Shown here in pieces: positions 25,580-60,558 of a stretch of 64,000 nt of DNA; position 1 is the stretch's first letter; each line of letters begins with the position of its first letter. Where the stretch lies: assembly GCF_029227915.1 (NCBI RefSeq), contig NC_079875.1:8553001-8617000 (forward strand), written 5' to 3'. This stretch comes from Hydractinia symbiolongicarpus. Lineage: Eukaryota; Cnidaria; Hydrozoa; Anthoathecata; Hydractiniidae. Under the pieces are notes generated by a model. That model did not search any database. It saw only the letters and a program-made list of their open reading frames with translations, and had not been told where the DNA came from. Both the position numbers and the translations under genes were made by a program.

Positions 25580-28500
25580 TTATACTGGTATTGGTTCAAG
25601 GTTGCTTTTCGAAAAGACTTCATGTTGTAGAAAAACTCCATCTTCTGCGTAATTAGCAATTGAGTGAAATGATGGCCATTTCGAAGGTGCAGTGGAAGCG
25701 AATACTGACGATAAATTGCTCACACTGTCGTACAGTGTTCCCTGAAAATTAAAAGATTGGATAAATGAATTATAAATAAATTGCAATGTTAAAGCAACCT
25801 ATAAACCTCACCCATTGTTAGAATCCTTTTAAAGTGTAACACAAAATTACCTTATCACAATCTCCTTCGCTACATTCTTTATGTTTTTTGGACTCCACTT
25901 TTTTACATGTTGCTCTCATTCTGTTTAACAAGAAATTTAATTTGGGTAGCATCTCTTTTGATTTAATTGGTTTCTTTCCGCCTGAAAGTCGTGTAACTAA
26001 ACTCATTATGTTCTTAGGTATCCTGTATCCGGCATCTTGTGTTGCCAATAGAAAAGAGGGTATAAGGGTTATTGCTTTGTCGTAACTGGTAAGGTATAAA
26101 GGAATAAATTGAAAACTGCTGTTTTGATGATATGCCATTGCAGTTATGAGTTTCAAAGCGAATTCGTATGGTCTGTGCTTTGATGAAGTGTGTTCTAAAT
26201 GGTAAGAAATGGAATGTTATGTCGGTATTTAAAGTACCTGCTCGTTAGGAAAGAAAAAAGCTGTGCGATGGACACGCAGAATGTTTATGTTTGCACGGAA
26301 TAACAAATCCGATATATTATTGCCGTCTTTGTTCTCATTGCGCACACGTAGTAAATCAATCACGAAGTCCGACTTTTACGGATAATTAATAAGCAACATG
26401 AAATGATCCAAGCTATTTATGATAGTCGTTTTAAATGTTGTGGTGTTGAGGTTCGGAGGCCTATTTGTGTTTTTATTTTTTTGCCTTCTGGAAGTTTTTT
26501 TTATTTCTTTAATATTTGACATGTTAGCCATTTACAAATCTTAAAGAAAAGAATTTTAAGATTTTCGCCACGAACGTAGATTAGCAGTGTTAATGCTATT
26601 TTATTAGCTACGATTCATTCAGTATATTATTAAGTGGTTTTATCTTTAGCTGACATAAATGTTTTTGTGTTTTACTGAACAATCTGGTTATCACTAAGGG
26701 GGCATTGAAGTTTGGGTTACTTTAGCTGAGTTGGCACTAATAGACAAAAGCAGGTAGTTTGGCTGCGGAAGGTTATCTAGTTGCACCACAAACCGTGTTC
26801 TAAACTTGCTGAAAGTCTGAAATTTATTGATACAATGAGAGGCGAAAAACTGCGACCTGTCGACTCGTTAAATTATGCTTTTAATTATTAGTTTCGGAAA
26901 TTTTATTTAAGCTTATTCGCAAAATTAAAAGTGTTTTAGCTGAATTGGATGAAGCTTGTGTTAATAACTTGATATCATACATTCGATGGTTAAGTCATTC
27001 ATTAAAATGTATCATTTTATGTGTAATGTTACTATTTTTTGTCATGTATTGTGTATTCATTCTGTTTTCACACTTGTTCGGTCTTCTATGTTTTATTTGT
27101 CTCATAATATAAGTCCTACCTGTATTATTATGTTGCATCTTCCCCTGTGTATTATTAAATTGTCTATTGTTAATTTTTAATGTCATTAGGGATTTCAGTT
27201 AAAACTATTTTCGTTCATCTATTATTTATGTAATTACATTATATAATAAAACTGAGTAACACACAAAATCAATCTAAGCGTTTCAACATCAATTATCGAA
27301 TAATAATTTACTTTGGCAATTTCATCCAGTTTGGTACTTGGCAATCTGGTAAGAATATTATCTAATATACTTATATTTAAACATTTTTGGTCAAATTTTT
27401 CAAAGCTAAAACTTGTATATATTTCTTTTTTAGGTTAAATTAAGTAACTTAACTTAATCAATACCAATCAAACCATTTCTTTACTACAAACAACCCAATC
27501 TAAACCCTGGAGAGACCTACAGTAATGCCAGGTGAAATTCTTTGTTTTTATTTAAACCGAAGTTTGATTCTAGAAAGAACTTATTCCGCAAAATAAAGAG
27601 AATGTCTGGTGACAGATCTAGGACAGCGTTAAAGTATCTATTTAAATGATGTTGCAGGAACGCTTTTGTTTAATTATTAAACAGATTTGCAATGTAAAAT
27701 ATACCTGTACTAAGCGCTCAGTCTGGATTTGTGAAAGAGTTTACCAACAATAAGTGTTCAACTTAGCGTTTAACGTATTTCAATGACTTCGTGCTACCAG
27801 GCATCCAAAAATACACAATTTTTTTCTGCAGGAAATATGTACGATTGGCGAAACTCTGAGGTGGATTCTCCCACAGGCTAACGACTAGTTATATTATAAT
27901 CAAATAATCAGTTTAAAAAAGAATTTTCGAATGTCGCTATATTCCTTTCCAACCGAGGGAGGGGATAGCAAGTGTTCGATAGATAATATTATAGTGTGAA
28001 CGTTCTGAACAATTTTTATGGATAGTACGCAAAAGGTTACGAAGCAAAATTTGTTACAAAAGAAAGGAAGAAATGTATCATTTTTACCTTTGTTGTGTTC
28101 CGTAAAGAGTATTAGAACATAATCGCATGAGTCGATATTTCTTTGTATGTACGACGATATTCCTCCTTCAGCATCTATTTGACTTTGTTCCAGCAGTGAC
28201 AATTTTACATCTATACCATAGGCTTTCAAAACTAACGCCAAATCTCTCATTAAGGTGTCCAGAAGCTCGCATCCAGGACGATTTAAGATCATTACCCTTG
28301 TAATTGTGTCTATAATAAAAGTATGAAAATTAGACTAAATGAATATGAGATTGTGGACCGATCCTTGTACAAGAACGATGGAAAAATCTATCGATTCTGA
28401 CGTCAGCAATGACCCATATACATGTGAAAAATATTTGTGAGAAATTTACTTAGCTTGTTTCGGAACAGGTGGGTTGACCCAGCTTTAGGAAATTAGCCTA

Positions 28501-31500
28501 ATTTTAGACATACGTGGTTCCTATTTAACTATACAGGGGCGTAAGTTATTTTCATCCTTCCCTAAGCTATTTGGCCTGAAATTCATTAACTATAATTAAG
28601 TTATTAACTATTACCATGCTTTTCTTCTTCCTTAAAGCCAAAATCTTTTTTTCGTGATTCTCGGGACCATTTGTGTGAACCGATGAAATTCTGTTTTATC
28701 TTCCTAACTATGTTAAAGACAACCAGAATTAAGATTATCAATAAGCCTCCTATGGAAACAACGATGATGTGTGTTTTGATTTGTGATTTCTTTGTCAACT
28801 TTCCTTCAGCAGAAAAATTGAACGGCACAAGTCTACAATGATTTTGTGTCAATTTAGATTGGTTTAAGTATCGAGTAACTTTAATGATGTCATTTGAAAA
28901 ATGCTTGCATACTTTTGACATGCTATTTTTTATTTCGGAGAAACCTAGAATTAAAATCAAGATTATTATCAATGACTCATTGCACGGCAATCACAAAATG
29001 ATTTAAATCGAAACAAACCGGAAAAATCAAAGCAATCCGTTTGATGCAGCAAAAAAAAGTTTAAATATTGAAATTGACATAGCTTTTAACAGGTTCTGAA
29101 ATAAATAAATCTGGTAATGATATTCAGAAGGTTAAAAAAAACTCGTTCAGCTAATTAATGTAGGTTGATTCCCGAAGTAATACCTATCAAAGTTTTTTTA
29201 ATTTTAAGTTTTATCAAAATATTACCTGGAGGCTTGAGACAATTGGAAAATGCCTTTTCTGCATCTAGAATAATGTTTACCGACAATGCATTAACAAAGA
29301 TTTAATATGCACGATAATTCAAAGAACATGTCACATAGCTACAAAAAAGAGTCGACTCAAATAAGAATAATATATACAACTACGCATAAAGATGAACTTT
29401 ATAATGCAACCTTTCTTCGACTTGTTTTGACCACAAATTGTAGACATAAAGAAGAATATTCTGTAGAGCAATCATGATTTACTGTTATAGGACTTACTAG
29501 TTCTGCTGAATGTTACGGCAGCAATCTCGCATTTTGCTACAAGTAAAAAAAGTACAAAATCGAAATTACGAAGTTATAATTATTTGTACGACGGGCACAA
29601 TCATTCTTTTCTAGATAAAAAAGAATCAAATGTAAAACGGATCTTTTGCGCATTTATTAATGATTTGTGATTTGTGATTGAAAAATCTGCATATTACTTA
29701 TGAGTGTGCCACGTGCATGTCGCATGTTGGGTATTGTAATGCAACTAGTCTACTTATATAACGTGCAAGTAAATTGTGTTTTTGAGAAGAAAAAAAAAAG
29801 AATTACTTGCCTATATAATAAGAAACATTTGGAATGTCGACACTTCGAATATAAGGTCTACAGTTCTTGGATGAATAATTTTGCTGTACCTTTAACAGGT
29901 AAACCTTGAAGTTCAAAGAATGGGCCAGAATTACCCGCTACATAGCATGTTGTTTTATTATTTCAACCTTGTCTATATTATCTAAAAGGCCAAAAGGAGA
30001 CTTCTTTATACTGCTTGTTGCTTTATTGCACGAAACAAAACTTTAATCTTGATGGAAAACATTAAAATGCACAATTCTATAAAAGCAAGCGACATTTTAA
30101 ATAAAAATAAATATCTGATGCTGATATGAAATACTTACATGGGGTTTTCTGTATGATAAGAGTTTGCGTTTGGCCAGATGGAATTTGTGTGACATTTATG
30201 ACGTATGGTACATCGTAAACTAATTTATGATCAGCTATCAAATAACGTCCCATAATCTAGAAAATATGAATCAAACAATTCGTTAAGTGAATCTCTATAA
30301 AATACTAAGCTTCTATATGTCTTTCTGTTTGTGACTTTTGCAAATGCCATATTTTTTACCACCCAAATGCGCGAGTTTTTCGAGTTTTTTTGTCAATATC
30401 TTTTAACGTCAATATCTTATATTAAATTAATGAAGCCAGTACAGTGCACTTAAATTTTGAGGCCAAATAACTTGGAAACGAGGTGGTGACGTCAATGATT
30501 TTTCACAACGTGTGTAACTAGGGACCGCCTGGGACCAATTTGGGTAAGTTTCCCAAACCTAGGTCCCCAAATCCGTTTCGGAATGGACGGGCTGATGACG
30601 TCATCAAAAAACCTTAAAACGGTAATATCTATGCAACCGTTTGTCAAAAGTACATGATCCTATACATTTTCTTCATCAACGTTTTAAGATCTACACGATG
30701 AAGGCAATAGGTATACAAATTTCTAAAAAAAAAAATTCTGTTTTGACGGGTCAGCAAAATTTTAAACCCTTATATTTCATTAACTGCTCATCAAAACCCG
30801 CGATCATATACATTTTCTTGATCAGCAGTGTAAGCTCTACACAACGAAGAAAACATGAAAATAAGTTTCTCAATTTATTTATTCTGTATCTGCTCTGCTG
30901 ACGTCAGCGGAAATTGTAAAACAACGTAATTTTCCATCTTCCTTCTGGCTAAGTGGATTTTCAAAATAAATTTACAAAAACATTTGAAAAAGGGCATGGT
31001 ATGTAATGAAGTACAGCAAGGTTTCAAAGGTTTGTTTATGTTTTTTTTAGTTTTAATGATATTATTGATGTGAGACATGTTTGTTAGCTAGCATCATAAA
31101 GCCAACCACAGCAACAACAATTTAATAGCTAGCTAGCTCGGATGTTAAAAATATGTTCTTTATTCCTCGCTAAGTCTCCAGTTATATTCAACTGACCAGC
31201 TATTAGCTGCTGTAGCTAGCTTATGTTAGCTTCAAACTTAAGACTCAAAGTACCTAGCTAACTTGTGAGTTTTATGTTGCTTTTTACATGTAAGCTAGCT
31301 ACCGTAGTTATCTTAGTGGTCTTTGCTAAGAATTTGGCTTATTTCACTTGACATTTTAAGCTTAAATTAACAAGCCACAATAACTTTTAAAAAAGTTTTA
31401 CATAATATTTAAGAATAGTTTAAGGACTGTTTTTAAGCAAATAATGTATTTTTCACATTTTGTGTAAGCAAATGTTTTTTTTTAACATTTTGTGTAACTA

Positions 31501-34500: not shown

Positions 34501-37500
34501 AGATTTCACTCAAATCGAGAAATGGTTGTTTGGGCAACACTTTGGTGAATTTTCCCAAATAATTTTTCCAGAAAATTAAAGCTAAGTTAAAGTTGGAAAA
34601 GTCACAAAAGGTATGAGTGCAGGAACATAAACAGTTTGGAAAAAAAGATGACCCTTCCACCCACCAACACAAATGGAAGAAATATTGCACAAATAGGCCA
34701 ATTCAATTGTATAATGCAGCGTTCCAAAACAACTATGCGTTACTTAACAACGAAGTATACGAATGAATTACCTCTTCTTGTGATTTGTACTTGGAAAGGT
34801 ATAATTCAGCATCATTGATGTATATGTTTACTAAATATCCCCAACAACCTAAATTACAATCGAGAGAAAAATATATCTGGTAAACTCTAAATTTTTTTTC
34901 GACAATGTATGCGTAAAATTATCGATCAAATGAATAAGGTTTTGTTTGGTTTTAAAATTAAAATCAGCCTATGGTCTAGTAAAATGTTCTAGTAAAATGT
35001 TCTAGTTCCAAAGACTTCCACGACATTTGGTGCTAGAGACTTCTGAGAAAAATACAATGAACAGTTGCTGTGATACTTAGTGACCGTCCAAGGACACTAC
35101 TCTGTTGTTACAGAAAAGTACACTTTTTTTTTCCAAGTCAAATACTTAGACAAGCATTTCTTTAACATATTTCACGGTGACAAATCACATCTAAACAATT
35201 TGATTATCCTAACCTGTTTTAACATTTTGCAATGTTACGAGGAGGTGTGTTTGTCTCGTGACTCGGCGATTAGCATACACAGCGTCTATCGAAAAAGGAA
35301 TCCTAAAGCATTTCTGATATATAGATAAGCACTCTTCACGTATTGATGCTACATCTACCAATTTAGCTAAAATGTAAGGAACACATGAAAAAAAATAATG
35401 TAAATTAGATTAGAAAAAAGTATAGTTATTTGTGAAATCTTTTAACTTTTCGAGATAACAAAACAGTGCTAAATTATGTCCCAATCCTGCTGCGGCAGAA
35501 TTTTTGCATGAACGTCTTTTTATCACAGGCGGTTGAAAGTTGTACTTTAACCCTATTCGGTCCTGAGGCACGGACGTTTTTTTAATAACTCCTTAATGCT
35601 ATGATGCATGGCTATGATACTTACTGAGTCATCCCTTTCAGAGGCTTTGATATTGACTATTACTCGAAACTACGCCTAAAAATCTCTATGAAACCCGTAT
35701 GCTAGGGAAAAAATTAGTGTGTCAAGTTTGATTCAATTTAAACAAGCCTATGAAAAGTTATTGCGGGCGGGCGGAATCCATCCCCCCCCCCCCCCCCCGG
35801 TTATAATATGTTCGAAAAACCCCGGACCGAATAGGGTTAAAATGGCAGAGTGAACATCATGAGAACAGACTGAGACTGCAGAGTCTGCTTTAATTTGGTC
35901 ACTATTCGCTCTATTCTAAAAATTCTCCAAGGAAAAACACCCTACCTGTTAGGTTTTTAATTTTCTTCTAGTTAAAACATTCGGTGTTAAGCCTTTATAC
36001 CTATACAGTTGGTATAATCCATCGTGAAATCAAGCGGTTAAAATTGTTTTAGGAACCTCAAGGTGACTTTACTTCCGCTAATGTAAACGTTCCTGGTTTA
36101 GCGTTTTTGGCCCCTTTCGCAAAAGATGTTTCCCCCAAAGTTTTAAAAAAAAGCTCATTCAGGATAGTTTTTTTCGGCAAAATATTTCAATTTGGGTGAA
36201 CCGCAAAAGTTTTTTTCCCGCGAAATAAAAAAGGTTGTCAGGAAAGGTTTTCCCCCGCTAAATGATTATGCTTTATTGTGTTTCCAGCACAGACGACATA
36301 TGAATTAAAAAAAATTATTTTTAACTTCTCCGGATTCTACAGTCCTACTCAATTTATCTCCCATTTCTGCCAAAACAGCCCTTTCCTCCGAAATAAAATG
36401 ATTCTATGCTTAACTGCATTATAGTACTTGTTTTACATAAATAATATATTCTACAATTACGGTTTGCCGATAACTATTTACAGCCATTTGGTACAGTAAT
36501 GCAATAATGTTTTAAAAATTTTAACATTTAATTTCCTCTGTTATTAATTTTGTCTTGTAAATAGTAGCCTTGAAGGAGCTACAAATCGATAAGTGCACTC
36601 TCCGTCATATACGTCCCTTCCATCCTCACACTTTCAAATGACGGTGTGTAATGAATAGACCACTCAAAAGATCAAATGCTAGAAATTATGCACACCTCAA
36701 AGCTTTGGACTTATTTATGAATAATTTGCAGTTGCAGTCTTGAAAAAAACATTTTCCTTTAGTATTCATTTTAGCCCTTGTCATTATACCTCCCTTTCAA
36801 CAAGACCCCAATTTTAGTAGACGTCCGAAATTATAATCATTTTTAACAATTAACTCTCCGGTGGAGAAAGGCTTATTCGATATTGGCCTGACCATTCAAA
36901 AGAAGTGGAAAATATCGCCATGATAAAATAAAATTTTTAAAAAAAGGTACGCGTTGTCTAAAATTACATTCTTTTAGAAAACTTTCGTACGTCAGTTGTA
37001 CAACGACCACAATCAAAACACATGTGACCAAGCGTACCAACAAATAATGTGCAACAATTTTTGTACACGAATTTGGATACACTATTTTCCAATTTGCTGG
37101 GCTTAAGCGAAAATCACCTATTCAATTTTCTAATCTCGGAGATAGGGAAAGACTAAAGGCATCTTGAGTTTGTTTATAGTGATATTTCTTTGAAGACATG
37201 ACATATACCAACAATGACATGGTTACAAGAACTAAAAATTAGCAAGTCTGGATTTGGAACTATCTAATCAATATCTGATCCACACACACTGTAAAATTTG
37301 TGACCAGATAATTGTTAAATACGGCGAAATTGTGACTAGAAATTCCTTTCAGACGAATAAAAAATTTATCACCAGAAAAGTAAATGTAGTTCTTTGTTCG
37401 AAAGCGTTGGAATGGCTGCGAAAAATTGGCTAAATTTCGGCCAAGCAAAAAACAACAAGCAGAAAACACGTATTTGCTGTCAAATGTAACAAAAGCTGTT

Positions 37501-39180
37501 TAATTTTAATATTCAAGGTTTAAATCATAAAGATACATACTGTTGTTCTTAAGTATTTCTTCAATTGCTTGTTTGTTGCAAGTTCTGTTGCCACCTAAAA
37601 ATTAAATACTGAATTCAATATCAAAGTAACGAATTAACAATTGGATTGGTTACTACAATGTATTAAAAGAAATTGTAGTTTTAATTTGCTACTGTGCTGT
37701 ATTAGGATGTGAAGAAAAAAAACTTTTAAGACCACATTATAACTGACAAAACATTGATTACAGATGTGTAGTTCCGATAAAACGCTATTCACACATGCCG
37801 GTTTATAGCATATGGAATTACAGAATAATTGCACCGGTACTGATACAGGTCCTGGAGATTTAAAGCTGATATTAACAACAATTTAAACAAGGTTTGTATA
37901 TAGCCAAGTAAGCTAAAGCCCTCCGTAAAAATATTAAAAAGGTCTAAATGATAGAGCTTTGGAGAAATGATTATTTGTTGGGAGGAAATAAAATATTTTG
38001 TGAGGGATTGTGTATGTTTCAATTACGTCTGAGTGATATTTAACTTTTTACTGTTCCTTATAAACTTTCAATATGATCAAAGAGCTTACCTTTCTCGACG
38101 TCAATGGCCTAAAGAATAAAGGAACACGCTAATACAAATGAGATAAAATATATGTTTATCAAACTTCCTACGTCAACTGCTCTTTGCATCATTTAAAACT
38201 TTCACCTTAATCCCTGATAAATAAGCATTCAACAACAACGACAAAGCAATGATAATAACCACGACAGTCACTAAGACAACAACGACTATAACTACGACAA
38301 CAAAACGAGAACAACGACGACAATGACAGCAACAACGACAACGACAACAAAAAATAAGCAAAAAAGTAACCAGAAAAGCAATCACAAAAAACTTAGCAAA
38401 TTAAAAACATAGCATAGCATTGATTCAAATTGTCATATTAAATGCTATAATTGAATGCGGAATAAACTTCACGTAATTACATTTGACAAAATGCTGTTGA
38501 AATTAGTTGCATCCGCTACTAAGATAATTTGTGTGTAGAAACTGTTGAATGAAAAGCAATGTTTTTGGATGGCATTCTTTTAAGAATAACAAAAAGATGT
38601 CGCATCTGCTCAATATATCGTTTGCTTAATTATTAATACTTAACCTTTACAACATCTAATCGACTTTCGTCCACCAAATTGGACGTTAAATTTCCAGACA
38701 GCACCAAATGTCTAGCATTCATCGCATCTTCTAAGATATATTACTTCCTAAAGTTTATGCTACTGTTATGTTAAAAGCGTTTAGAAGTTCCAGAAGTTGA
38801 AAGGCATAAACTTTATTAGGTCTTTTGAAATTTACGTCGACACATTTATTTCAGCATCTGCGTGAGCGTTAACCTGTTTGCTGCACACAGTGAAGTGGGT
38901 CAGCTTGCAGATCAAGTGCCCGTGACTATGAATCGAACACCTCTCACCACTGTACAGTGTGTTGGCGATGCACAAAGTCACATTTGCTTCAGGTAAAACA
39001 AAGATAAAGTTTCCTGTTTGCATCTTCTAAGCGAGGTTTTAATTCATTTATTCCTTAGAAATAAAGTTATATCAAACATTGCAGAGAAAAAAATCAAAAA
39101 TTTAAGGATTTTACCTGGAGATCCAACGCAGCATTGGTCAACATTAGAAAACTAATCAACATATACTTTGCAAGTACCAT
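25580..39180 (-). CDS. IL-17-receptor-like membrane protein with SEFIR domain (gene A)
   Basis: Thirteen minus-strand exons assembled by eye: 39180-39115, 38108-38090, 37594-37541, 37429-37286, 34848-34772, 34287-34243, 30256-30139, 29536-29498, 29264-29226, 28944-28615, 28309-28088, 26194-25851 and 25741-25580. All have GT..AG borders and matching phases. They sum to 1659 nt, 552 residues, ending at TAA. Exon 1 is a signal peptide (MVLAKYMLISFLMLTNA). The ectodomain, to about residue 258, carries RTCNKQAIEEILKNN, CWGYLVNIYIN, VINVTQIPSGQTQTL and KCEIAAV.(39-nt exon) AFSNCLKPPG. A membrane helix at about 259-280 (IIVVSIGGLLIILILVVF) is followed by a basic stop-transfer. The SEFIR domain starts at about residue 311 (RVMILNRPGCELLDTLMRDL, KAYGIDVKLSLLEQ, NIDSCDYVLILFTEHNKG) and extends through YLTSYDKAITLIPSFLLATQ. 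SEFIR domains pair with one another in IL-17 signalling. The start exon, signal and TM support a surface receptor. The least certain exons are 4 (a GTGTGG donor) and 6. Confidence 0.85.
27861..27888 (+). repeat. Helitron-like 3' terminus
   Basis: GTGGATTCTCCCAC can form a short hairpin, followed by AGGCTAACGACTAG and then T. The same pattern occurs at 33839-33865 and 2165-2193. Confidence 0.4.
28380..28560 (-). repeat. R1 family fragment, copy d, in a gene A intron
   Basis: On the minus strand it reads GAAGCTGGGTCAACC-like sequence (here AAAGCTGGGTCAACCCACC) followed by a CTGACGTCA site. It aligns with 7120-7170 of copy b. It lies between the TM exon and the first SEFIR exon of gene A. Confidence 0.55.
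30405..30965 (+). repeat. R1 family repeat, copy c, between gene A exons
   Basis: This is close to copy a (1620-2100). Shared blocks are AGTGCACTTAAATTTTGAGG, CTAGGGACCGCCTGGGACCA, CCCCAAATCCGTTTCGGAAT, TGATGACGTCATCAAAAAAC and GATCCTATACATTTTC. It ends in CTAAGTGGATTTTC, the start of the terminal hairpin, and is truncated there. It lies in the intron between exons 7 and 6 of gene A. Confidence 0.7.
31075..31310. repeat. AGCTAGC-rich cluster
   Basis: TAGCTAGC-type palindromic tetramers (AGCTAGCTAGCT near 31128 and repeated TAGCTAGC or GCTAGCTA) recur about eight times within 230 bases. No coding is seen. Confidence 0.5.
31380..33838. other. Low-complexity intron of gene A
   Basis: The DNA is very AT-rich, with recurring TTTTTCACATTTTG or TTTTTTACATTTTGG motifs (near 31450, 31483, 32250, 32848 and 33479) spaced irregularly, an ATATATATATAT tract at 33176-33190, and many poly-T runs. 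It may be an old tandem array. I see no exon inside this intron. Confidence 0.45.
33839..33865 (+). repeat. Helitron-like 3' terminus
   Basis: The hairpin GTGGATTCTTCCAC is followed by GGGAAAGAGCTAG and then T. It is the clearest copy of this terminus in the window. Confidence 0.45.
34155..34175. repeat. Poly-G tract
   Basis: A run of about 16 G lies inside a sequence (GAGGGAGCTGATATTCAGCC) that recurs as GGAGGAGCTGATGCAGCC near 54823. It is probably part of the same decayed MITE family. Confidence 0.6.
35551..35836. mobile_element. TTAA-flanked MITE in a gene A intron
   Basis: A perfect 13 bp inverted repeat, CCCTATTCGGTCC and its inverse, is flanked by TTAA at 35547-35550 and 35837-35840. 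The interior holds a 16-17 C homopolymer (about 35783-35799). It is homologous over most of its length to 46850-47149 on the minus strand. Confidence 0.85.
36100..36270. repeat. Repeat rich in TTTTTTCCCGCG motifs
   Basis: Several CGCAAAAGTTTTTTTCCCGC-like and CCCCCAAAGTTTT motifs occur in tandem-like order, as seen in dispersed repeats. The boundaries are not clear. Confidence 0.35.
38225..38350. repeat. AAC/GAC trinucleotide microsatellite
   Basis: There are imperfect ACAACGACAAC repeats. The minus-strand frame here (a valine-rich peptide) is an artefact of the repeat. It sits in the first kilobase of gene A, in intron 1. Confidence 0.7.
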
Positions 39181-40370
39181 TGTAAGCTCTCTGTATCCTA
39201 CAGCCTTTAATCACGCACAGTCTTTACTTATGTCTCTCTTTTCTATTTTTTAATATTTTTAAGTTAGAAACTATAAGGCGGTAACTATAGCAACAGCTTA
39301 TACCAATATAGGTGATTAAGGTTTTAATTATCCTAGGAATCTTTTCAATGCTACAATTTTCTCTAACGTCATTCATATCATAATCCTTTCAAGTAATTTT
39401 AGGATAGAAAAACATTGCGTGTTTCAAATTTCGTTACAGTTGCAAACGGTACCCACTAGGCGCTAATCAGCATTAAGTTAGTAAATGAACAAATAATGAT
39501 AACTAGGGCTGAAATAATTTTGAGCATTTACACTACTTAGTATAAAACTAGCGCTACTAAATTACTCACTTGCAAAGTTGAATCAAAAAATAAAATCGCC
39601 TTACTTTGCTGTGTCTGTAAGTGTCAGCAGCATGTTTATTCAGAAATTCGGAATTAAATTATTACTTGGCGACAAATACTTTTTTTTTGTTTGTTGCACT
39701 TTTGAAAACAATAACAAAATTATATAAATTGCTTAATAAAGAGTCATTTTATTTTTACCACAATTTTTTTTATAAACCATAGGTATTATAAGAATTTAAA
39801 AAATATTGCACCGTTTATATCCTAAAAGCATTTCCAATTAAAATAATTACCGGTTGATATATGGCGATAACCAGAGCTAAATATAAAAAAATTAATCTTT
39901 GGAACTTGCGGTAACTAGCTCTAACTAGCGCCAAAATAAAAAGCAAAAACGTCTCTATTAGAAAGAAAGTAATCTCAATGTTATTTCCTGCTAATTAGTG
40001 TTAATTAATACCTGTAGGTATACGTTTTTTAGGGTAAATTCTATGGGAAGTGTCAAAGGAGTGCATTTTCACATCCCTTAAAAACACGACCACTTAATCT
40101 TACTTTCCACCGGTTTCTGTTTACTTAGAGTTTATAAGGCGATGATTTACCGTAGTTCTGAACCAGAAAATCAAGAACTTGATGGAAAACGGGCATGCTA
40201 TTTAAATTAGGAGATCAAAAGTAAGGGCCATTTAGATTATCTGTTACTTATCTATCACTCATTATGTGGTCTAACTAATATGAGGGAATTAAAAGAATTG
40301 CTCCCAAATAGTCTCTTAATGTTACATTTATTTGTTACTATTCTCTAGCTACGTTTTGCATCCTTTTGCA

Positions 40371-40727: not shown

Positions 40728-40948
40728 GCTTATGTCACCAATTCTTCTGTGGGGTTATCAGAAACTTGGAATTTGTCCAAAAAATCACTATCTGCTTAAA
40801 GTTCTAGAATTCGGTTTACGTTTTTGACAGTAAACATTTTGTTCGTGTATATAAAGAAAGGGTCATCGATGAAGCATTCCCACAGCGTTACAGACCTGGT
40901 ACGGACGGTATTTTAGTAGTCTTAGTAAATGCACGAGTAAGAGGGTGC

Positions 40949-48779: not shown

Positions 48780-48930
48780 ACGACTATATATCTATCACTT
48801 TCAATTAATACAGAATCTACATTCAAATGTGGTATATAGATTTAACTGCCATAGCTGCAATGCTATCTATACTGCCATGACAATAAAAATTCTTAAAGTA
48901 AGAGCCACTGTATGCATGACTTTATCATTC
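48780..48930 (+). pseudogene. GIY-YIG-like fragment of a Penelope-like element
   Basis: The frame reads QNLHSNVVYRFNCHSCNAIY and then TAMTIKILKVRATVCM. This resembles the 'SNVVYKFTCxxCNxxYIGxTxRxLKxRxxEH' start of the GIY-YIG endonuclease domain. The expected glycine and arginine positions are partly lost, so it is a dead remnant. Confidence 0.45.
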
Positions 48931-49229
48931 TAAGGTGATGTTTTTAGTCCTTCTAATTGTATATATATACACATGTACCTATAATTCGAAAAAGCAATTT
49001 GGATGAAATAAACGATGTATTATAAGAATGACCTCACAGGTCAATGCGGTTTTAAGAAGAATCGTAGGTTAATTATAATCTCTGTAAGGTTAATTACATG
49101 CATTGAAATCAGCTGTCACCATAGCTTCTATCTTATTATTTTCTGTGCTAAAATTTTTAAAAAATTTGAGAAAAAGACATAACTAAAAGCAAATTGACTT
49201 CATGACTTCAGCATACAGAGAGCTTAAGA

Positions 49230-52200
49230 ATGGTATTTGTAAAGTATCTTTGGATTATTCTCCTAATATTAACAAATGCTGTTGTGGATATCCAGGTAAA
49301 ATCTTTAAACTTTAAAAAATTACTTTAACAATATTTAGTATAGCTTCTAAAATTTCTAAGGGCAAAGTTGAATTTTAGCCGTATATATACAACTTTTATG
49401 ACTACGTCAACGTCATGAACTGAAATGACCAAATTTATACAGATGAATAAATTCAATGTTCCTATTAAGGATACGTTAACGGACAAGTTCTGATATTCTA
49501 AATATAATTTAGTATATGCAGTAGAGAGTATACATATATTATGTACACTGGATGTTATGTTGCCAAAACAAGACCATTCAAAAATTGTTACAAGGGAATA
49601 ATCTTGAAACATAACATAAATTTTAAATGTTTTTGAGTTGATTCCTCTACAGGTTGTCATCTAAAACATTTTTTCTTAGCCTTTTTTATGAAATTATCAA
49701 CCAACCGTGTTGTGATAAAATGCACAATAAATTTGAGTAAATTCTTCAACAGGTTTATATAACTGGATTATGTAATTAAGTTGTTTAACATGTTGCTATT
49801 GCTCTCCCAAATATAAAATATCGCTTGTTTATTTTCTAATGCTTTACTGCTCTTTACTTTGTTTTGACATAAGGAGAAATTTAATGCTGCTATTTTGTTG
49901 CTTTTAAGAAGTACTGTCTGTTTTCCAAGTTTGGTTCCGTTTGGGAAAACCTATGAAATGTTGTGAACGGGATCAGCACCTTTTGTCATATTATGTTCGA
50001 AATATCTAGGACAAAATAGGGTCGGGGTGAAAAATTGAAAGAATGATAAAAAGAAATGTTAACGTAAGAAGGACTTAAAAGGTCACCAAAATTAGCTAAT
50101 AGTGTTATAGAAGTGTATTTTATCTTGTTTTTCTTGTTTTTAGGCCATTAACGGCAAAAAGGGTAAGCTTTTTATTCATATGGAATGTTATTAAGAATCA
50201 TACAATACTAGGTAGTCCTTAAATGTAAACAATTTCTTTAATTCAATTTAAAGCAACGAATCTAATTTTAAGTTATTTATAGACAATGATATTGAATTCA
50301 GTAACTAACTTTTTAGGTGCGAACAAGACTTGCAACAAACAAGCATTTGAAGAAAAACTCAAGAGCAACAGTACGCATTAAGTGCTAAAATACTAAGATG
50401 AAGCAGCCTGTGCAAAATTTGAGAGCAAATAGGTTTCCTCCGTTTTCTGTTTTGTGATGAAATTTAAAGAAAAGTTAATACAGCCATTAAAAAGCTTTAG
50501 AACTAAGAATTAGATTATTCCTGGTAGATGTAGATATTTAACTATCCTGGTGATTATTTTTCTTTTAAGAGCTTCTCTTTTTTGAAAATTCTAGGTTTCT
50601 AAAAATCCTTTTTATTTTCCAAAGTGTTGATCATAGTGCTCTTAAACATTAAAACATTATTGCTGGGATATGCTATGTCTTCAAACCCCCTCCAGCTAAG
50701 TATCATCATGGTAACTTACGTGGAGGTAGGCTGTTTTAGCAGAGCTTTTTTATTATTGGGAGTTCACCTAATCAATTGGATGCTAATTTATTGCGATGCC
50801 CAAACTTTGACGTTATGATTTTTTAGTCAGCCGCAATGTTTAGTTGTGTCGCTTTCAAAGTTTCAGCGCTACCCGTTTCTATACTATGTCGTACCTAACA
50901 TTGCAATTAACACTCCCGGACCAACATGTTGGCCAGCATTTTGGTGCGGTTTGCTTTAGGCACTTATGGTTATTTAAGGGCACCCGGTGAAGGAATGCGT
51001 TCCAACAATAGTGTTCAAAATCTGTATCGTTTTGCTAACTTGCAGCTTTTTCAGACACGCCATAAATGTGAAAATCAAGTTCCACAACAGCAACAACTAC
51101 AGCAAGGAACATATACTGTAATGTTAAGTGAATAATAAAGCTTGTATTTGATAAGAAATAAACAATAATAGTACTTCTACTAAAAAAAGTTGTTTAAAAT
51201 TGCGAAAATACATGTTTGGTTGCTTCTTTTTTGTCTATGCAGTGTCCCACTGCCATTCGACATTTCCATCATTCATGAAACATTTACTGAATATTTCTAA
51301 AGTCACTTTAGAGGCTTTCTTCCTGCTTAAGACACAATAAATAAAGAGAAAACCATAAGAGATTTCCTTTTACTGACCTCCAACTCCCTTGCACAACTTT
51401 GCTTTGGGAATTCGCGGAATCGATAAACCCAGAGGGAGCATAGTCGTTTCCTTTTGTTGAAGGCAATCTATTTGCCAAATGCAAAACATGTTCCCTCATA
51501 TTCATCTTGATCAGCTATGACGGTAGTTGTAGACGCTTTTTTAGGATACATGTTTAGGATGTTAGATTAGCTTTAATCCCTAACAATAGTATGCTGTATG
51601 TTGATATATTCATAAGGTAAATAGGTAGCATCTAGGATTTTCAAGCAGGTTTTTTTAGTTTTCTGCATAAATCTAAGTTAATTCAAACACCAGAGTAATT
51701 CATCCGTCAATTGCTACCAAAATCTGAGACATGCTATGACCAATAAGGTTATTAAAAAGGTTTTTTGCAGTTAAAATTTTCAAAACCGGTGCCAGGTGGG
51801 GGTCTTATTTGAATATACTTCCCATCAATTTCCCCTAAACAATTAGGAAAGTTTCATCTTGATTGGAAAGCCTCAGCTATTTTTAACCAATTATCTAAAC
51901 TTGATGATAACTTGATGATAACTTGATCTACTTTTTCTAATATACTCTGCTGTAGCTTTAGTAACCTCATCATTAATGTAAGATATATTGCTTTTTCAGG
52001 AAACCTGAATTGTCAAGTTAATAAAGCAATACGTTTCACATTTAGCAGGAAATTGGATAGCAAACACTAATTTTTCAGCCAGTGAGATTATTGATTGAGC
52101 TCCCATTTCGGCTTATTCTTTTGCGCATCTAATTTCTTGTAGGACCCCCTCTTTTTTCGGCATTGTCATATATTAAGGGACCAATTGAAAACAGGCTCTT

Positions 52201-55200
52201 CTTTACACGTTCTACTCGAAGGACAGTAAAGCAGCAAATGAACGAACATATATAAATGTTTGCCGCTTGTTATGAATTATGGTATAGCAAACCGTACTAA
52301 CATGTTGGCCTGATTTATTGACGATTTGTTAGGCAACATGTTGCAACATTTGCGACCGCATTTTTTTTTTCATAAGATACCAATGGCATTCCTAAAGTTG
52401 TCAAAGCAAAAGAACATATCCTATGACTTTTTTTAATAAATATTTTAAGGTTTGTATAAAAAAGACTAATTAAATATCTAGAATTTTTTTGGCATATTAA
52501 CGGATCATATTCAGGATCCGTAAAATATTTTGGATTTTTCAACTTGTTAGTCAGCTAGTCTACTTTATTAATATGCAAAGGTTGTTGGTCACTAAAGAAA
52601 CGAAACCAGGTTACAATTTGTATATAATGTAAAAAAAATTAGCAAAGGCGCTATTCTCGTGGTAATCCCTTACATGTTTCCGTTTTTTGAACATGTGACT
52701 TTGTGGTTATCATATGTTCGGTTTTTTGTTAATAATCCAATAACATTGGTGATATTGGTGTTAAGTTGTAGATACTAGCTAAATTGCGAGATCGTCAGTT
52801 GATTACTACCGTCATCAGAATTTTCAGCCCCGTCCGGGTATGGACTAATCAATAATTCCTCGTAATAGCGGGCCATGCTTTAGCAAGCATTCTCTATTAG
52901 CTAGGAGTATCAAATGTTGTAAAGTAGGTAAATGTTACTCACCATTTCCGTTGCTAGCGTCAAATTCGCTTGAACTGAAGAGATCGTTAGTCTGCATGAT
53001 GAAAATTTATTTGATTCAATAAAAAAACGTTATAAGTCTTAGTCTTAAGCAATCTTTTTCCATACTTTTAATACACACTTTGGTATTTTGTGCAACATTA
53101 CAACTTGCAGCGACAGAAGATGTTATGCAAAACTTTATATATCTATATATATCTATCTATTATATCTAATATTTCATATGTTATATAACATCACATTTTA
53201 TGTTTTCTTACATCTTAGCTAAATTGGTGGATGCAACATCGATACATGATGAGTGTGCATCCATGTACCCGAAATGTCAAAATGTTCGTTTTTCCATACG
53301 AGTCGCATCTGCAATTAATGCCAAAGAACAGCTGTACCTTCTCGCGACGTTGTACACTGTTGAAGCAGGTTGGAAGAAACGATTTTGTTAAGATATGGTT
53401 TTTCAGCATGTAATACGTGGAATAATTAAGTCATTAAAGAAACGCCTTAAAGTATTTCTCTTCCAAAATAAGCACATTAACATTTTGTAACGACACTAAG
53501 AACTGCTTGTACGGTAGCTAAGTATTACAGGATTCTGCGTAAATCCTCTGAAGCACTTCTCAATTTTCATGTAGGTTGTTGGGGATACTTAGTAAACATA
53601 CATTACAATGGTGTGCGATTACACCTTTCCAAGTACATATCACAAGAAGAGGTAATACTTTTGTTAATCTGAATTTATTTATTGAGTAGCTGTAAGTTAT
53701 TTTGGAATGTGGCGTTAATAGGAAGAGCTAGATTGCTTTCAAGCAGTATTAGCAAATCCTTGCTGGAAATCGAGTTCTGTGACGATTTTACGGGCACCAT
53801 TCTAAAAGATGAAAAACGAAAAGTGTCGTATTTATTAAAGGTATCCCAAAGTACTTTTACAAGTTGGACTACCTGATAGATTTTCATAAGAAATTCCCAA
53901 TGACATATTTACTTTTTGTTAAAAGTTCATGTAACACCAAATATCGTTTTCAAATCTTTGTTTTTCTTGCCACCTTGACGGCCGCTTCGATCTTCGCTAA
54001 AATTTCAGACTAGTTCCAGTCTTTTTTTGTGGCACGCAACCCTTGCGTCATATTTATGCACGACTCAAATTAATGACTTTTATTCGCTAAAATTAATGAA
54101 TTTCATGGCAAAAAACAATTAATTCGCCTTACCAACAAAGTTAAAAAAAAAATTCCAAATCGATCTCTGTACTAATGATTTTTAATTTTTTAAAAACAAT
54201 AATTCAACATAATATACTTACTAGCCGTCTATAACCTGTCGGCCTGGGCGGGGTACAATGCTCAAATGAGGTTGCCTAAGTTATTCAGTAGATGGATATA
54301 CGTTTTAATAAAAAATCAGTGGAAAAGAACACTTTTTTAATTCATCCCACGATACAGGAAAACACAGAGATTACTGTCTAATTAAAGTTTGTATCAAATG
54401 ATATTTTTTCACTATGTAGCGCAAATATTAACGCTCCTGGTTTCGTTCTAAGGACGTTTAGATAAGAAAATGTAAGGTAATCAGTTTTAAATCTAGAGTA
54501 TACTAACCTTGTCCTCAGGCCTTTTAGTTCTAAACTACACTGCTCCTCCATAATAAGACCTTTTAAAAGTTAGAAAAGATACAAGATGCCCTAGGGACGA
54601 GGTTGATATGTTTAGCTTTTTTCACACGTCTGATCGCACAAGTCCTAGGACTTCTTCTGCGTGATTTCACCACGACAAATAAATGCCGACGTTAAGGTAT
54701 ACCTTTAAAAATATGTTGCCAATCACGTAGGCAAATGCCGAGTGCCGTCTCAAATTACGAAGATTGTAACTGCCCTTAATTATATTCGTGCTGGACCTTC
54801 AGCACGAATATGATTAAGGGCGGAGGAGCTGATGCAGCCGCCTTTCCCTCCCCTATTCAATAACTTTTTATGATGTTACACATACTTTGGCTAACTTTTA
54901 TTTGTCTTCCAAGATATATCCTTTTGAAATAAAAATCATACTCAAATGTATGGCATGTTGAATTATCACCAACTTTCACAACCTGGGTCTCAAATAAAAA
55001 CCCTTTGAAATAAAAATCATGCACATTTTATTTTTCGTTTGGTTGCTCAGCTATGTGAGAACATTTGCAGAATTATTTTCTTTTTCTAAAAAAAACATAA
55101 TTGTTCCTAAAGAACTTTATGCAAAATTATTTTAATTTTTTTAATAAGAAAACAATCGTTCGTAGAGAACATTTGTTTTGCCGAGAGAAGGCATCCGTTT

Positions 55201-58200
55201 GCCTAGCTATAACAGTCAGTAATGTTTGAAGCGCTGCATAAATATTACGTTACAGGGTCACGTGCCACTAAACAAAGACTGGAACTAGAATAATTTTTTT
55301 TAACGAAGAAGAAGGTCGAATATAAACAGGTCCAGCGAGAAGAAAATAAATATTTAAAAAGCTATATCTGGAGTTACATGAAAATATCATTTACAATTTA
55401 CCATGCAAATCTCTCAGAGTCCTACTTGCAAAATTACCTCGTGATTCCCTTAAGTGTTCTGCCATTTCTATAGAGGTTGTTCAGTGAACGACATAGCACT
55501 TATTAGTCCCATCCGTAAAATTACATTCATGTTATTCGCATAAATTATACAGTAACCCTTTTTAGTTGTCCAAATATCTGAATTATTTAGTCATTTTTGT
55601 GTTTATACCATTTTGTTAATATTGCCTAACCATATAGGTCTTAATACATAATAAAATGATTTCAACTTAACACCAAAATTGCTGAGTCAACAAAAATTTC
55701 TCTTTAAAAATGTTTTATGAACAAGAAAAAAAATCTGCTTCCACGAGCTTCAACTTTTTACAATATCTTTATTTTTCATCAGCTTCTGTTTTTAAATGAA
55801 CCTTGGATTATTGTGTTAAAAGGTTGTGTGGAGTTGTGTTGTTTATTGACATTTTTTTAACAATAGCCTTTTTTCTTAAAAAAGATTCTTTGTTAGCATC
55901 CCCTGCTGCATCGGACGGTGTTAAAAGAAAAATATTCCGAATAAAAAATTCCGCACACCATATCATGGCTGCATGGTTCACCAATCATGTCTGAAATTTT
56001 AAAGTAAAACGAAAATGCTATTGAAAGTTAAAGCTCGTGCAGTGTAGCCTAATGAAAATAACCGTTCGTAACTGATTATGTAAAAAAAGCCATTTTAAAT
56101 AGGTTACTGCCACCTTAATACAAGCAAATGGTTTGAATTTTTTAGATAAACAGTGCTGATTTTCTTATTGCACAAGATAAGTTGATTAACGAAGTATCAT
56201 ACATTTTAAATGTCACACAAATCCCATCTGGGAAAACAAAATCCCTGAGCATAAAGAAAACTCCATGTAAGTTGTTACTCTTTTAGAGGGAGAATTAGTA
56301 GTTTTTATAAAATGAAATATCTATTTTAACTCAAAAAGTTGGTTTTATAAACTTCTGCGTCTAAATGCTTTCTGCCAAGATTACAATTTTGAGTAAAACT
56401 ACACGGCTTAAAAAGGTGTAAATGTGTAAACACTCCAACTCTTTCAAGGCTAAATAGGCAAGGCTGATAGAAATATTTCACATGGCTTTATTAAGAAGAC
56501 ATGACAGGTTCATTCTCCGAACATCAGGGTTTATTCCTTAGAAGTAAAACAATATCATACTTTGCACAGTCAAGTGGTACTTTTTTTAACACAGGCGGTA
56601 AATCTTATATTCGAAGTACCGGCCTATCAAAATTTCTTTCTTAATTAGTTAACTGGTTCTTTTTTTTGTTCCCTGTGCAGATGATTGTCGCATTTGGACT
56701 ATCTTATTTAAGCAGGGTGGTTGTACTGCACTTCAATATGCGATATTGTGCATTCCTATGGAAGAAGCAAGTCTATTTAATGTAAAAAATAGTGGATGGA
56801 TATATAATACTAATTTTAGGTTTTATCCTGGTTGAGGAAGAATTCCAGTTTTAATTGAAATTAACTTGAGTGGACTGAATCTGATGTGTATGCCATGCCA
56901 TATGTTTGAAAACACGCAATGTACACCAAAATGACTTAGCCGATTTAATTTCACTTTTGTAACCGCTCCTAATATATCGTTAAACAATTGTATCATAATT
57001 CATAATTTCATTTTCTTTTTATTCTATAACTTGTAGCAACATGCGAGATAGCTGCCTTTAGTTTCGCTGGTAAGTACTAAAATACTAGATGCATGGTTAA
57101 TTATAAGTGTAATGGTTACTCTACAGAATATTTTCCTTGATACCTCCAGTATTAGTCTCCAGTATTGAAGACGACTGCAATTTTGGAGTTTGATCATTAA
57201 GTAAGGCTACCTTTAAATCCGTTTCATGCGTTGAAAAGGGCGACGAACGGCTCTTGTCTGAACAATTTTATCTACGATGGTAGCTGGATGCAGTTGAGGC
57301 ATACCTTGGAGGATAATTGTTTGCAACTGTGTCACATGTTAAATTGTTGTCGATAATGTGTATACTAAATCGCTGTACTATGCATATCTACCCAAAAGGA
57401 GGCAAAACTACTTGGATGTCGATTCTTTTTGGCCGCTATGTCACACGTGTTTTGAATTTCCATGCATATTAAATCCTTGTTGACGCCTTGTTGGTAAACA
57501 TTCTAGGTGCAGTGAAGGCATTTTCCAATTGTCGCAACCCTCCAGGTAACATTTTGATAAAGGTTCTGTTTCCGAAGAGATGTTGCTTCAGAAATCAAGC
57601 TACCTTAATTTGCTGAACGAGCTTCTTTATATTTCTGAATATTTTTAGCAGATTATTTTATTTCAGAACCTGTTAAAGTCAATTGACAATTTTAAAATTA
57701 AAATTTGAATTTTAATGCTGTATCAAACAGAGTGTTTTAAGTATTCCCTTTTGTTTCGATTTAAATCACTTTGTGACTCCCATGCAACTAGTCATTAATA
57801 ATAATCTGAATTTTATTTCTAGGTTTCTCCGAAATATTATCTATCATGTCAAAAGTATGCAAGTATTTTTCAAATGACGTCATAAAAGTTACTCGATACT
57901 TAAAACAATCTGAATTGACGCAAAGGCATTGTAGACTTGTGCCGTTTGATTTTCCTGTGGAAGAAAAGTTGACAAAGAAATCTCAAATAAAAACATCTAT
58001 CATTTTTGTTGCAATAGGAGGCTTGTCCATATTCCTAATTCTGGTTATCTTTAAGACAATTAGGATGTTAAAACAGAAATCCACCAGTGCAAATAAATGG
58101 CTCCGAAAATCACAAAAAGGAGATTGTGCCTTTGGGAAAGAAGGAAAGTATGACGAAGTTTTACAAAGTAGGTCAATAACTTTTTTGCAGTAACTAAACA

Positions 58201-60558
58201 TTTGTTCCGTATGTGTTGAATGCTAAAATAAAACACAAGTACAATAGACTCTCTGTATAACGAACCGTTAAGAGAACCGAAAATAAGTTCGTTATATCGA
58301 GAGTTTGTTATACAGAAAAATATTTTTAAAAAATTAATTAATCAATTTATTGAAATTCTGTATTTTTTAAACCTGCAAAAATTTATAGTGTTGATTTCAA
58401 CACCATAAACCCCTAAAGTGTTCAACCACAACTAACTCTGTTCAAATACAATCAAAAATCACAACAAATTTGAATCAAAGCAGCATTTTTGTGTTATTGA
58501 TTCCATTACACAATGGGCAACGTCTTCATAAACCTAGCATATTATCTCTCAGAGATCAGTGGTTTCCCATAATAAAATTTGGCTCATTAAAATGTTATTG
58601 ACAAGATGATATCTGAAAATTCAAAAATTTATTTGTGTTTGTTCTACTGCATACTCTAATAATGTTTCTATGATTCGAATTTATTGATTGGGATGACATT
58701 GAACTGTTTTGTTAGTAAAACATAATATTGATACCGATAAAACTTTGAAAATATTACCAAGTTTCTGTTACATTTTGTACCTTGAGTTCCTTATATCTAG
58801 TTTTTTTCTTAGTTCGAGAGAAGAAAAATTTAGATTTAGGCAGGAGGAAACTTATGGCAACGAAAATATGTACCAATTTTAGTCGAATTTAGAGAAGGCG
58901 ATAAGCAGGCAGTTGATGACAAATATTTTTGCTAATGCAAATCCAGTTCTTTGAGGTTAACATGCGAAAAAAATATTTTCATTTTGTTACTACTATTTAC
59001 CAACGCCTCTACAGTTCCTTTTGCTACTGCTTTAAACGAGGGTCTTCATAACGAGGTCTAGTGCACTTTAAGTTTACCTTTAAGTTAGCAAGGATAGCAA
59101 ATAGCCGAAATATAAGCTAGAACTCCTAAATTAAAGAAGCATTACGGTGTCAATTTGGGTTTGTCATGATATCTGTTATATGTAAAATTAAATAATAGGA
59201 AAGTCTTTTTAATGAAGCATACCCAGCCAGTCGATTTGGTGTATAAAATGAACACTGACATCGTGAACTTTTGTTTAGCGGTCGTGCCGAAACGCAATTC
59301 GCCTCTCCTTTTAAATACTGTTGTTACACTAAGATAAGAAACTATGATAGCATTCGATCAAAATATTATTTCTGCTCGACGAGCAGGTAAGAACAGTTTT
59401 TTGTACCATATTCAGTTATTCTCATACTCATACCCTCCTTATAGATACTGCCACTAGAGTTATGATCCTTAATCGTCCCGGGTGCAAGCTTCTAGACACC
59501 TTATTGAGAGATTTAGCGTTGGTTTTAAAAGCCTATGGCATAGATGTAAAATTATCACTACTTGAACAAGGTCAAATAGACGTTGGAAAAGAAATGTCGT
59601 CTTACATAGAAAAAAATATAGACTCGTGCGATTATGTGCTAATTTTCTTTGCAGAACATAACAAAGGTAAAAATACATCATTTTTCCTTCATTTTGTATA
59701 AAAACACACTATTTAAATGGCAATGTGTTAACTCGCTTTTTTTTTATTACGAGTATGTGCGTAGTACTACTAAAAAATATTCAATGCGGATTACTTTTTT
59801 TAAATGTTCACTGTAAAGTGAGACACTTTTATCCTTTAAGTCATAGTTTAAAACCAAGCATATAACGATGCGTAACAAAAAAAATTTGTTTTAGGCTGAT
59901 TATTTCCGTAGTAAAATAACTTTTCCTTTTTTACTATGTTTAGAACACACTTCATTAAAGCACAGACTATATGAATTTTTTTTGAAATTCATAGCTAGAA
60001 TGGCATATCATCAAAACATGGGTTCTACATTTATTCCTTTATACTTGACCAGTTACGACAAAGCCATAACCCTTATGCCGTCTTTTCTTGTGGCTGCACA
60101 AGATGCCGGATACAGGATACCTAAGAACTTAATGAGTTTAGTTACAAGACTTTCAGGCGGAAAGAAACCAATTGAATCAAAAGAGCTACTCGCAAAATTG
60201 AATCACTTGCTGAACAGAATGAAAGCAACATGTAAAAAAATGGAGTCCAAAGAACACAAAGAATGCAGCGAAGGAGATTGTGATAAGGTAATTTTGTGTT
60301 ACACTTTAAAATAATTCATACAATGGGTGCGTTTAATAGGTTGATTTGACAGTGTAATTTATTTATAATTCGCTTATTCAATATTGAAAATTTCAGGGAA
60401 CACTGAACGACAGTGTGAGCAATCCATCGTCAGTATGTACTTGCACTGCTCCTTCAAAGCGGCCATCATTTCACTCAATTGCTATTAAAACAAAAAATGG
60501 AGATGTTATACAACACGAAGTTATTCTAGAAGGCAACGTGGAATTAACAGCAGTATAG
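49230..60558 (+). CDS. IL-17-receptor-like membrane protein with SEFIR domain (gene B)
   Basis: Plus-strand exons: 49230-49295, 50144-50162, 50317-50370, 53219-53368, 53575-53651, 56146-56266, 57037-57069, 57507-57545, 57823-58167, 59445-59666, 59944-60287 and 60397-60558. They total 1632 nt, 543 residues, ending at TAG. All phases match gene A. The signal peptide is MVFVKYLWIILLILTNA. The ectodomain carries KTCNKQAFEEKLKSN, DECASMYPKCQNVRFSIRV, CWGYLVNIHYNGVRLHLSKY, YILNVTQIPSGKTKSLS, TCEIAAF and AFSNCRNPPG. The membrane helix is SIIFVAIGGLSIFLILVIF. The SEFIR domain is RVMILNRPGCKLLDTLLRDL, KAYGIDVKLSLLEQ, NIDSCDYVLIFFAEHNKG, then PLYLTSYDKAITLMPSFLVA. The cytoplasmic side is much better conserved than the ectodomain. 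A possible extra exon, 53697-53840 (LFWNVALIGRARLL.., phase 0 at both ends), would insert 48 residues. I found no partner for gene A's 45-nt exon 6. Confidence 0.85.
49935..50025 (+). repeat. Fragment of the CCCTATT/TTAA MITE family in gene B intron 1
   Basis: TATTATGTTCGAAATATCTAGG and ACAAAATAGGGTC match the right end of the copy at 35805-35840 (ATATGTTCGAAAAACCCCGG.. GAATAGGG). The left end is missing. Confidence 0.5.
51300..52200 (-). pseudogene. Dead PIF/Harbinger transposase in a gene B intron
   Basis: Minus-strand reading gives, near 51905-51770, DNWLKIAEAFQSR-stop-NFPNCLGEIDGK followed by YIQIRPPPGTGFENFN. This is the 'WNFPNCIGAIDGKHV' block with the first catalytic Asp; the stop sits where the Trp should be. 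Near 51490-51370 it gives VLHLANRLPSTKGNDYAPSG and FIDSANSQSKVVQGSWR, the 'LHN..YxPxGFxD..G.W' end of DDE_Tnp_4 proteins. The middle is eroded by stops and frameshifts. It lies in the long intron before exon 4 of gene B, on the opposite strand. It cannot be active. Confidence 0.7.
52780..52998 (-). other. Possible short two-exon coding remnant next to the Harbinger element
   Basis: On the minus strand an ATG near 52996 starts MQTNDLFSSSEFDASNGN, followed by a good donor (GTGAGTAAC). About 75 bases downstream, EELLISPYPDGAENSDDGSN is open. Both parts are acidic, like the N-terminal regions of transposon-encoded proteins. They may be the 5' exons of the Harbinger element, but I cannot show the connection. 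Confidence 0.3.
53697..53840 (+). other. Possible extra exon of gene B
   Basis: This is an open 144-nt stretch after an AG (GCTGTAAG) and before GTATCC, phase 0 to 0, directly after exon 5. It encodes LFWNVALIGRARLLSSSI and ends KRKVSYLLK. The opposite strand is open too, and gene A shows no clear homologue, so it may be chance. Confidence 0.3.
54772..54821. repeat. Long hairpin in a gene B intron
   Basis: The 22-base arms, GCCCTTAATTATATTCGTGC TG and its inverse, pair with one mismatch around GACCTT. They are followed by GGAGGAGCTGATGCAGCC, also seen beside the poly-G tract at 34155. It is probably the core of a decayed MITE, though a stem this long could also be transcribed as a small-RNA precursor. 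Confidence 0.7.
58245..59060. mobile_element. pogo/Tc1-like MITE in a gene B intron
   Basis: The left end is TAGACTCTCTGTATAACGAACC, with an internal inverted repeat AAGTTCGTTATATCGAGAG TTTGTTATACAG just after it. The inverse of the right end reads TAGACCTCGTTATGAAGACC. TA borders both sides. 'GTTCGTTATAtcGAGAG' motifs are typical of pogo/Tigger-class ends. There is no transposase frame inside. It lies between the TM exon and the first SEFIR exon. Confidence 0.6.

Follow-up and report, generated by a model that had tools for sequence, protein, structure and literature searches.

The IL-17 receptors of vertebrates contain two fibronectin-III units, the second of which is referred to as D2. An extracellular fibronectin-III-like domain is named as a feature of the IL-17 receptor family in PMC4517768, and a transmembrane protein with a SEFIR domain has been reported from Trichoplax (PMC6321704). 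The origin of the IL-17 cytokines has been placed in Cnidaria by PMC8353272, which counts none in Hydra, 3 in Nematostella and, in Pocillopora, 11; PMC4517768 gives no IL-17 for Hydra or Nematostella. A chromosome-level genome exists for the hydrozoan Hydractinia (PMC10411563). Here we describe two neighbouring Hydractinia symbiolongicarpus genes, called A and B below, in a stretch of 64,000 nucleotides (the window; NC_079875.1, positions 8,553,001 to 8,617,000, with all positions below counted from its first base). Our analysis suggests that they are two intact paralogous hydrozoan IL-17-receptor-like receptors that arose by a local inverted duplication and probably underwent partial gene conversion later, an overall reading that we consider probable (about 0.78).

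Gene A has its start codon at 39180 and runs on the minus strand to 25580, and gene B has its start codon at 49230 and runs on the plus strand to 60558. Exon models, assembled from repeat pairs, translated comparison and splice signals, give 12 exons for each gene and products of 540 (A) and 543 (B) residues. All 44 splice dinucleotides of the two genes are GT or AG, exon lengths are identical between the copies or offset by multiples of three, and the intron phases are the same in both (0,0,1,1,1,0,1,1,1,1,1,0). Comparison of the window with itself (E<=1e-10) yields 13 repeat pairs, five of them other repeats and eight inverted and exon-bearing. The eight are arranged as mirror images on the two sides of the centre, from 39.4/49.0 kb out to 25578/60560, and in translated comparison the coding blocks of both flanks match in one outward order. 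The preliminary description of this DNA had proposed a divergent pair produced by inverted local duplication in a cnidarian genome; the repeat and exon structure agrees with this, the start and end positions are exact, and the products match H. symbiolongicarpus proteins. No third SEFIR copy or pseudogene was seen in a tblastn search with 14 aligned family members, since all 94 matches at E<=1e-3 fall within the two gene spans, intronic matches being counted with the rest.

The reference proteins corresponding to the two genes are both named "uncharacterized". The product of A differs at three residues from P0001 (LOC130638053 isoform X1, 540 residues, 99%), and that of B at four residues from P0003 (LOC130638079, 543 residues), both proteins being assigned to a contig of 42,572,105 bases. 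Differences of this size point to another haplotype or strain, or a close relative, of that species. Because the products equal the reference proteins in length and are nearly identical to them, the reference gene models too connect the signal exon with those for SEFIR, a connection seen at the level of gene models in the reference annotation. Both genes are thus already reference gene models under non-committal names, and the pair adds members to a known kind of receptor, because SEFIR receptors are also known in early animals (PMC6321704). Among the titles and opening abstract lines of the open-access papers searched, none describes Hydractinia genes for SEFIR proteins or IL-17 receptors; PMC11797021, which contains both words, mentions Hydractinia in its reference list.

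The cytoplasmic part of A matches the Pfam SEFIR profile (E 8.1e-05) with 23.4 bits, a marginal 0.4 bits above the cut-off of 23, and B has no SEFIR match at E<=1. Across the 14 aligned members, among them the reference proteins of A and B, SEFIR appears at E<=0.1 in 11, the best at 1.2e-08. When ten members were scanned singly, seven passed the SEFIR cut-off, and B and two Hydra proteins gave no match at E<=0.01; P0017 also scores above the cut-off, and P0008, with 18.9 bits, below it. We count B as a SEFIR protein because it is 67-68% identical to A, and through the family. The SEFIR assignment made earlier for both genes is thus borne out by the profile for A and for most of the family, and not for B on its own. 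Sequence searches of the PDB with A, the family profile, P0013 and P0009 returned no IL-17 receptor chain at E<=10.

Signal peptide and topology were judged by hydropathy, together with helices at the same sites in the structure models. Both products have a hydrophobic amino terminus and one membrane helix: the 19-residue windows whose hydropathy exceeds 1.6 begin, for A, at 1 and 242-255 and, for B, at 1-7 and 241-251. In the models of P0001 and P0009 a seven-strand sandwich is predicted, and FnIII domains rank among the best structural matches of both; at E<=1 neither A nor B matches the Pfam FnIII profile. In its fibronectin-III ectodomain unit at one end and its SEFIR domain at the other, the predicted structure of P0009 is similar to IL-17 receptor structures, with modest confidence, and unrelated proteins take the top Foldseek rows of both models. 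The sandwich is followed by helices instead of strands (164-217 in P0001, 159-216 in P0009), and no second fibronectin unit is predicted in these models, in which the ectodomain was not folded alone. The predicted ectodomain consists of one fibronectin-III-like unit, possibly of the type of the first unit (D1) of IL-17 receptors, with helices before it, a helical stalk after it and eight conserved cysteines, and the single unit in place of two is possibly a variant feature. The pair combines a cytoplasmic SEFIR domain, a single-pass layout with signal peptide and a fibronectin-III-like ectodomain, the last by predicted fold only, which are features of the IL-17 receptor family. Hydropathy, SEFIR matches in the family and the predicted likeness of fold all agree with the earlier proposal that the genes encode SEFIR receptors with a single membrane pass, akin to those for IL-17.

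The exons follow the same plan in both genes. On the minus strand, exon 1 of A (39115..39180) holds the start codon and signal peptide in 22 codons and matches P0001, exon 2 (38090..38108) is a 19-base micro-exon whose counterpart in B is equally long, and exon 3 (37541..37594) precedes the ectodomain exons 4 (35214..35366), where the predicted fibronectin-III-like sandwich begins, 5 (34772..34848) and 6 (30139..30256). After exons 7 (29498..29536) and 8 (29226..29264), exon 9 (28615..28944) encodes the membrane-proximal ectodomain, the transmembrane helix and a linker. The first part of the SEFIR domain lies in exon 10 (28088..28309), the second part with the carboxy-terminal extension in exon 11 (25851..26194), and the conserved tail and stop codon in exon 12 (25580..25741). 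On the plus strand, B begins with exon 1 (49230..49295; start codon and signal peptide, matching P0003), the 19-base micro-exon 2 (50144..50162) and exon 3 (50317..50370), continues with ectodomain exon 4 (53219..53368) and exons 5 (53575..53651), 6 (56146..56266), 7 (57037..57069) and 8 (57507..57545), and encodes the membrane-proximal ectodomain, transmembrane helix and linker in exon 9 (57823..58167). Exon 10 of B (59445..59666), the first part of SEFIR, has Lys-Glu in place of the Gly-Gly of other members; exon 11 (59944..60287) holds the second part and extension, and exon 12 (60397..60558) the conserved tail and stop codon. In isoform X2 of A (P0002), exon 9 begins late, at an internal acceptor (28707), so that the membrane helix is dropped in frame; the membrane-proximal segment is removed, and signal peptide, ectodomain and SEFIR are retained. 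Spliced in this way, the A gene of the window encodes 461 residues with three differences from P0002, and B has no AG at the equivalent position.

The divergence between the copies is patchy. Exons 4, 6 and 10 show 0.52, 0.51 and 0.49 synonymous changes per site, and exons 8, 9, 11 and 12 show 0.11, 0.18, 0.22 and 0.25. For the latter four exons 38.5 of 184.7 synonymous sites are changed, versus 72 of 161 in the rest, a group that includes the similarly low exon 5 (0.21); the Fisher p of 1.9e-6 is optimistic because the grouping of exons was picked after the similarity blocks had been seen. Intron 8 is alignable at 80% over 240 columns and intron 11 at 83% over 109 columns, most or all of their length. 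Measured against the best of 20 shuffles, intron 5 aligns no better and introns 1, 9 and 10 barely better. Introns 2, 3, 4, 6 and 7 are alignable in part, so the pattern does not resolve into two clean conversion tracts. The sequences therefore do not show a duplication that is recent throughout. The patchiness is most simply explained by gene conversion between the inverted copies, for which uneven constraint is an alternative.

The pair belongs to a hydrozoan family. Protein searches found 16 proteins at E<=10, and 17 at E<=1 with the family profile, which was scored against the best 7996 candidates, chosen by most words in common. Those that carry names represent twelve loci of Hydractinia and a single locus name of Hydra, and the Hydractinia members are spread over four contigs of 42.6, 33.1, 32.0 and 24.9 Mb. 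In a tree of 16 sequences A and B are sisters (100/100) and form a clade with P0004, P0005 and P0006 (100/99), and P0008 and P0017 have long branches of unsure placement. The ectodomain cysteines 34, 59, 66, 99, 165, 184, 201 and 225 (A numbering) are kept in 13/13 or 14/14 of the sequences that have the residue; Cys59 leaves the list of positions conserved at 90% once P0008 and P0017 join the alignment. A tail after SEFIR (His477, Cys480, Cys485, Lys487-Gly488, Ser493, Asn496-Leu497-Ser498) is invariant in both alignments. P0008, a Hydractinia protein of 802 residues, appears by eye to have its ectodomain unit doubled before one membrane helix and SEFIR, and the number of ectodomain units may vary within the family.

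A and B have diverged unequally along their length. The ratio of nonsynonymous to synonymous change (dN/dS) is 0.45 over the whole coding sequence, 0.25 in SEFIR (302-442) and 0.47 in the ectodomain (1-245), so that positive selection across the whole ectodomain is not seen. The ratio is 1.13 for residues 246-301 (helix and linker), and in exon 9 the changed proportions of nonsynonymous and synonymous sites are equal; this elevated signal is weak evidence because the counts are small and conversion is possible. With the reference proteins, 11 positions were found at which A, B or both differ from a residue common to the 12 other aligned members: B only at 347, 348, 349, 354, 381 and 461, A only at 400, and both at 324, 363, 391 and 401. 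The window's own A departs at 461 as well, which leaves five sites (347, 348, 349, 354 and 381) marking B alone, and by the 90% list of 16 sequences P0008 and P0017 cannot depart there either. The predicted order in this region is a strand (332-337), a short helix (340-344) and a helix (348-356), with residues 347-349 at the start of the last helix, which we take to be about where TIR domains have their BB-loop. According to PMC3730142, SEFIR domains have no BB-loop and use the CC' loop for binding.

Several other explanations have to be weighed against that of IL-17-receptor-like paralogues. The cytoplasmic domain could be TIR and not SEFIR, in which case the pair would be TIR receptors similar to the two-part Toll-like receptors of Hydra and unrelated to IL-17 receptors. 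TIR_2 is indeed a sub-threshold match in A and the sole match in B, and plant and bacterial TIRs and one human TIR align with the structure models. However, the TIR_2 scores (17.7 bits in A, 17.0 in B) are under the cut-off of 28, SEFIR beats TIR_2 in A, only four of the 14 members have TIR_2 at E<=0.1 as against the 11 with SEFIR, and the longest cytoplasmic alignments shown for the P0009 model are with IL-17 receptor chains. We therefore regard a TIR identity as improbable. If the domain is SEFIR, B may still be a decoy or negative regulator that binds a common ligand or adaptor and signals poorly, comparable to the brake exerted by IL-17RD, which sequesters Act1 (PMC3730142). Its five private sites, at which A and the 12 others agree, would fit such a role, as would its longer terminal branch (0.37, versus 0.15 for A) and the excess of polarised SEFIR changes on its side (14 in B, 5 in A, p = 0.06, 8 sites unassigned); in the ectodomain B has 9 such changes and A has 12, with 45 unassigned, and polarising omitted sites at which P0004-P0006 give no majority. 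The difference in rate between A and B is not significant, however, an altered SEFIR may still signal, and the five sites may or may not carry weight in function, so that we hold a decoy role to be somewhat unlikely. At the level of sequence, the changes in the SEFIR of B are compatible with division of labour, with a role in regulation or with relaxed constraint.

The two genes may also be ordinary duplicates that do not work as a pair, their closeness merely reflecting the duplication. The start codons are separated by 10,049 bases, and a homologous 5' flank of about 210 bases accompanies each gene (39182..39389 on the minus strand for A, 49010..49227 on the plus strand for B), with homology ending about 210 bases upstream of either start codon when 1500 bases per flank are compared. 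Family members elsewhere share contigs as well, with four of the numbered proteins on the 33.1-Mb contig and five on the 32.0-Mb contig. On the other side, SEFIR is under purifying selection, yet B is altered at otherwise kept sites, which suggests non-identical roles. Duplicates without pairing are thus quite possible, if somewhat short of an even chance. A shared or bidirectional promoter finds no support given the separate flanks and the distance between them, and the self-comparison (E<=1e-10) shows, beyond the flanks, no pair with both parts inside the intergenic space. The earlier suggestion of co-regulation from the shared 10 kb is accordingly not upheld, and such co-regulation and A-B heterodimers are conjecture.

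An inverted match of 85 bases (84%) links 35630-35714, in intron 3 of gene A, with 46911-46995, between the genes. The longest intergenic open frame (40374-40754, minus strand; 118 residues at 40374-40727) was considered as a gene for a secreted ligand and set aside. By eye it resembles a short secreted protein with a hydrophobic start and several cysteines; Pfam gives no match at E<=0.01, a search with 118 residues (3 candidates) yielded no relative at E<=10, and chance alone would produce roughly one frame as long as this (mean 0.9 in 20 simulations; the window has 11, real genes included).

Elsewhere in the window, two long open frames of 876 and then 182 residues lie in line at 9669-12848 (minus strand), separated by a stop codon and with a sub-threshold DUF5123 match in the first. 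A likely remnant of a Mutator-like transposase is found at 3942-5042 (plus strand), where the first of three overlapping frames has a sub-threshold Pfam Mutator match (E 0.00098), and an open frame at 5677-5979 (minus strand) matches P2RX7_C with 22.4 bits, just under the cut-off of 23.5. A direct repeat of about 450 bases (79%) at 1644-2096 and 30402-30839, the latter in intron 5 of gene A, is probably a dispersed element, and an inverted repeat of about 115 bases (80%) at 17821-17935 and 18531-18641 possibly marks the ends of a small mobile element.

By analogy with known IL-17 receptors, an extracellular ligand, perhaps an IL-17-fold cytokine and perhaps another molecule, would gather receptor chains, and the clustered SEFIR domains would bring in an adaptor that itself has a SEFIR or TIR domain (Act1/CIKS or MyD88 type), with NF-kB/MAPK signalling for innate defence as the likely output. 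Gene A may provide the conventional signalling chain and gene B a modified partner or modulator, with its SEFIR altered at sites kept by relatives. More broadly, hydrozoans may have kept and expanded a single-fibronectin-III branch of IL-17 receptors, either once a recognisable IL-17 had been lost or before one had been gained; the receptors would now answer other ligands specific to the lineage, and in pairs like A and B a signalling chain would stand beside an unequal, modulating one. We consider this scenario rather doubtful at present. Of particular interest is the occurrence of IL-17-receptor-like genes in hydrozoans, in which no ligand is known for them. Hydractinia is amenable to genetic manipulation, and its family, together with the Hydra relative, makes it testable which ligand IL-17 receptors recognise where the animal has no obvious IL-17.

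The pair can be compared with three known systems. It shares with vertebrate IL-17RA and IL-17RB the signal peptide, the single membrane helix and the cytoplasmic SEFIR with a carboxy-terminal extension, and its predicted fibronectin-III unit resembles theirs; it differs in having one predicted unit followed by helices and in the lack of an IL-17 receptor sequence match in the PDB at the threshold given above. The Trichoplax protein likewise has SEFIR and a membrane helix, with sequence likeness to IL-17 receptors in SEFIR, but PMC6321704 reports no significant fibronectin-III support in its ectodomain, whereas here the predicted fold of a relative gives such a unit. Finally, Hydra vulgaris LOC100205133 (P0015 and P0016), the one locus name found for Hydra against twelve in Hydractinia, is 28% identical to A over the full length and has no Pfam match at E<=0.01, but resembles the pair in length, layout, the eight ectodomain cysteines and the invariant cytoplasmic and tail residues.
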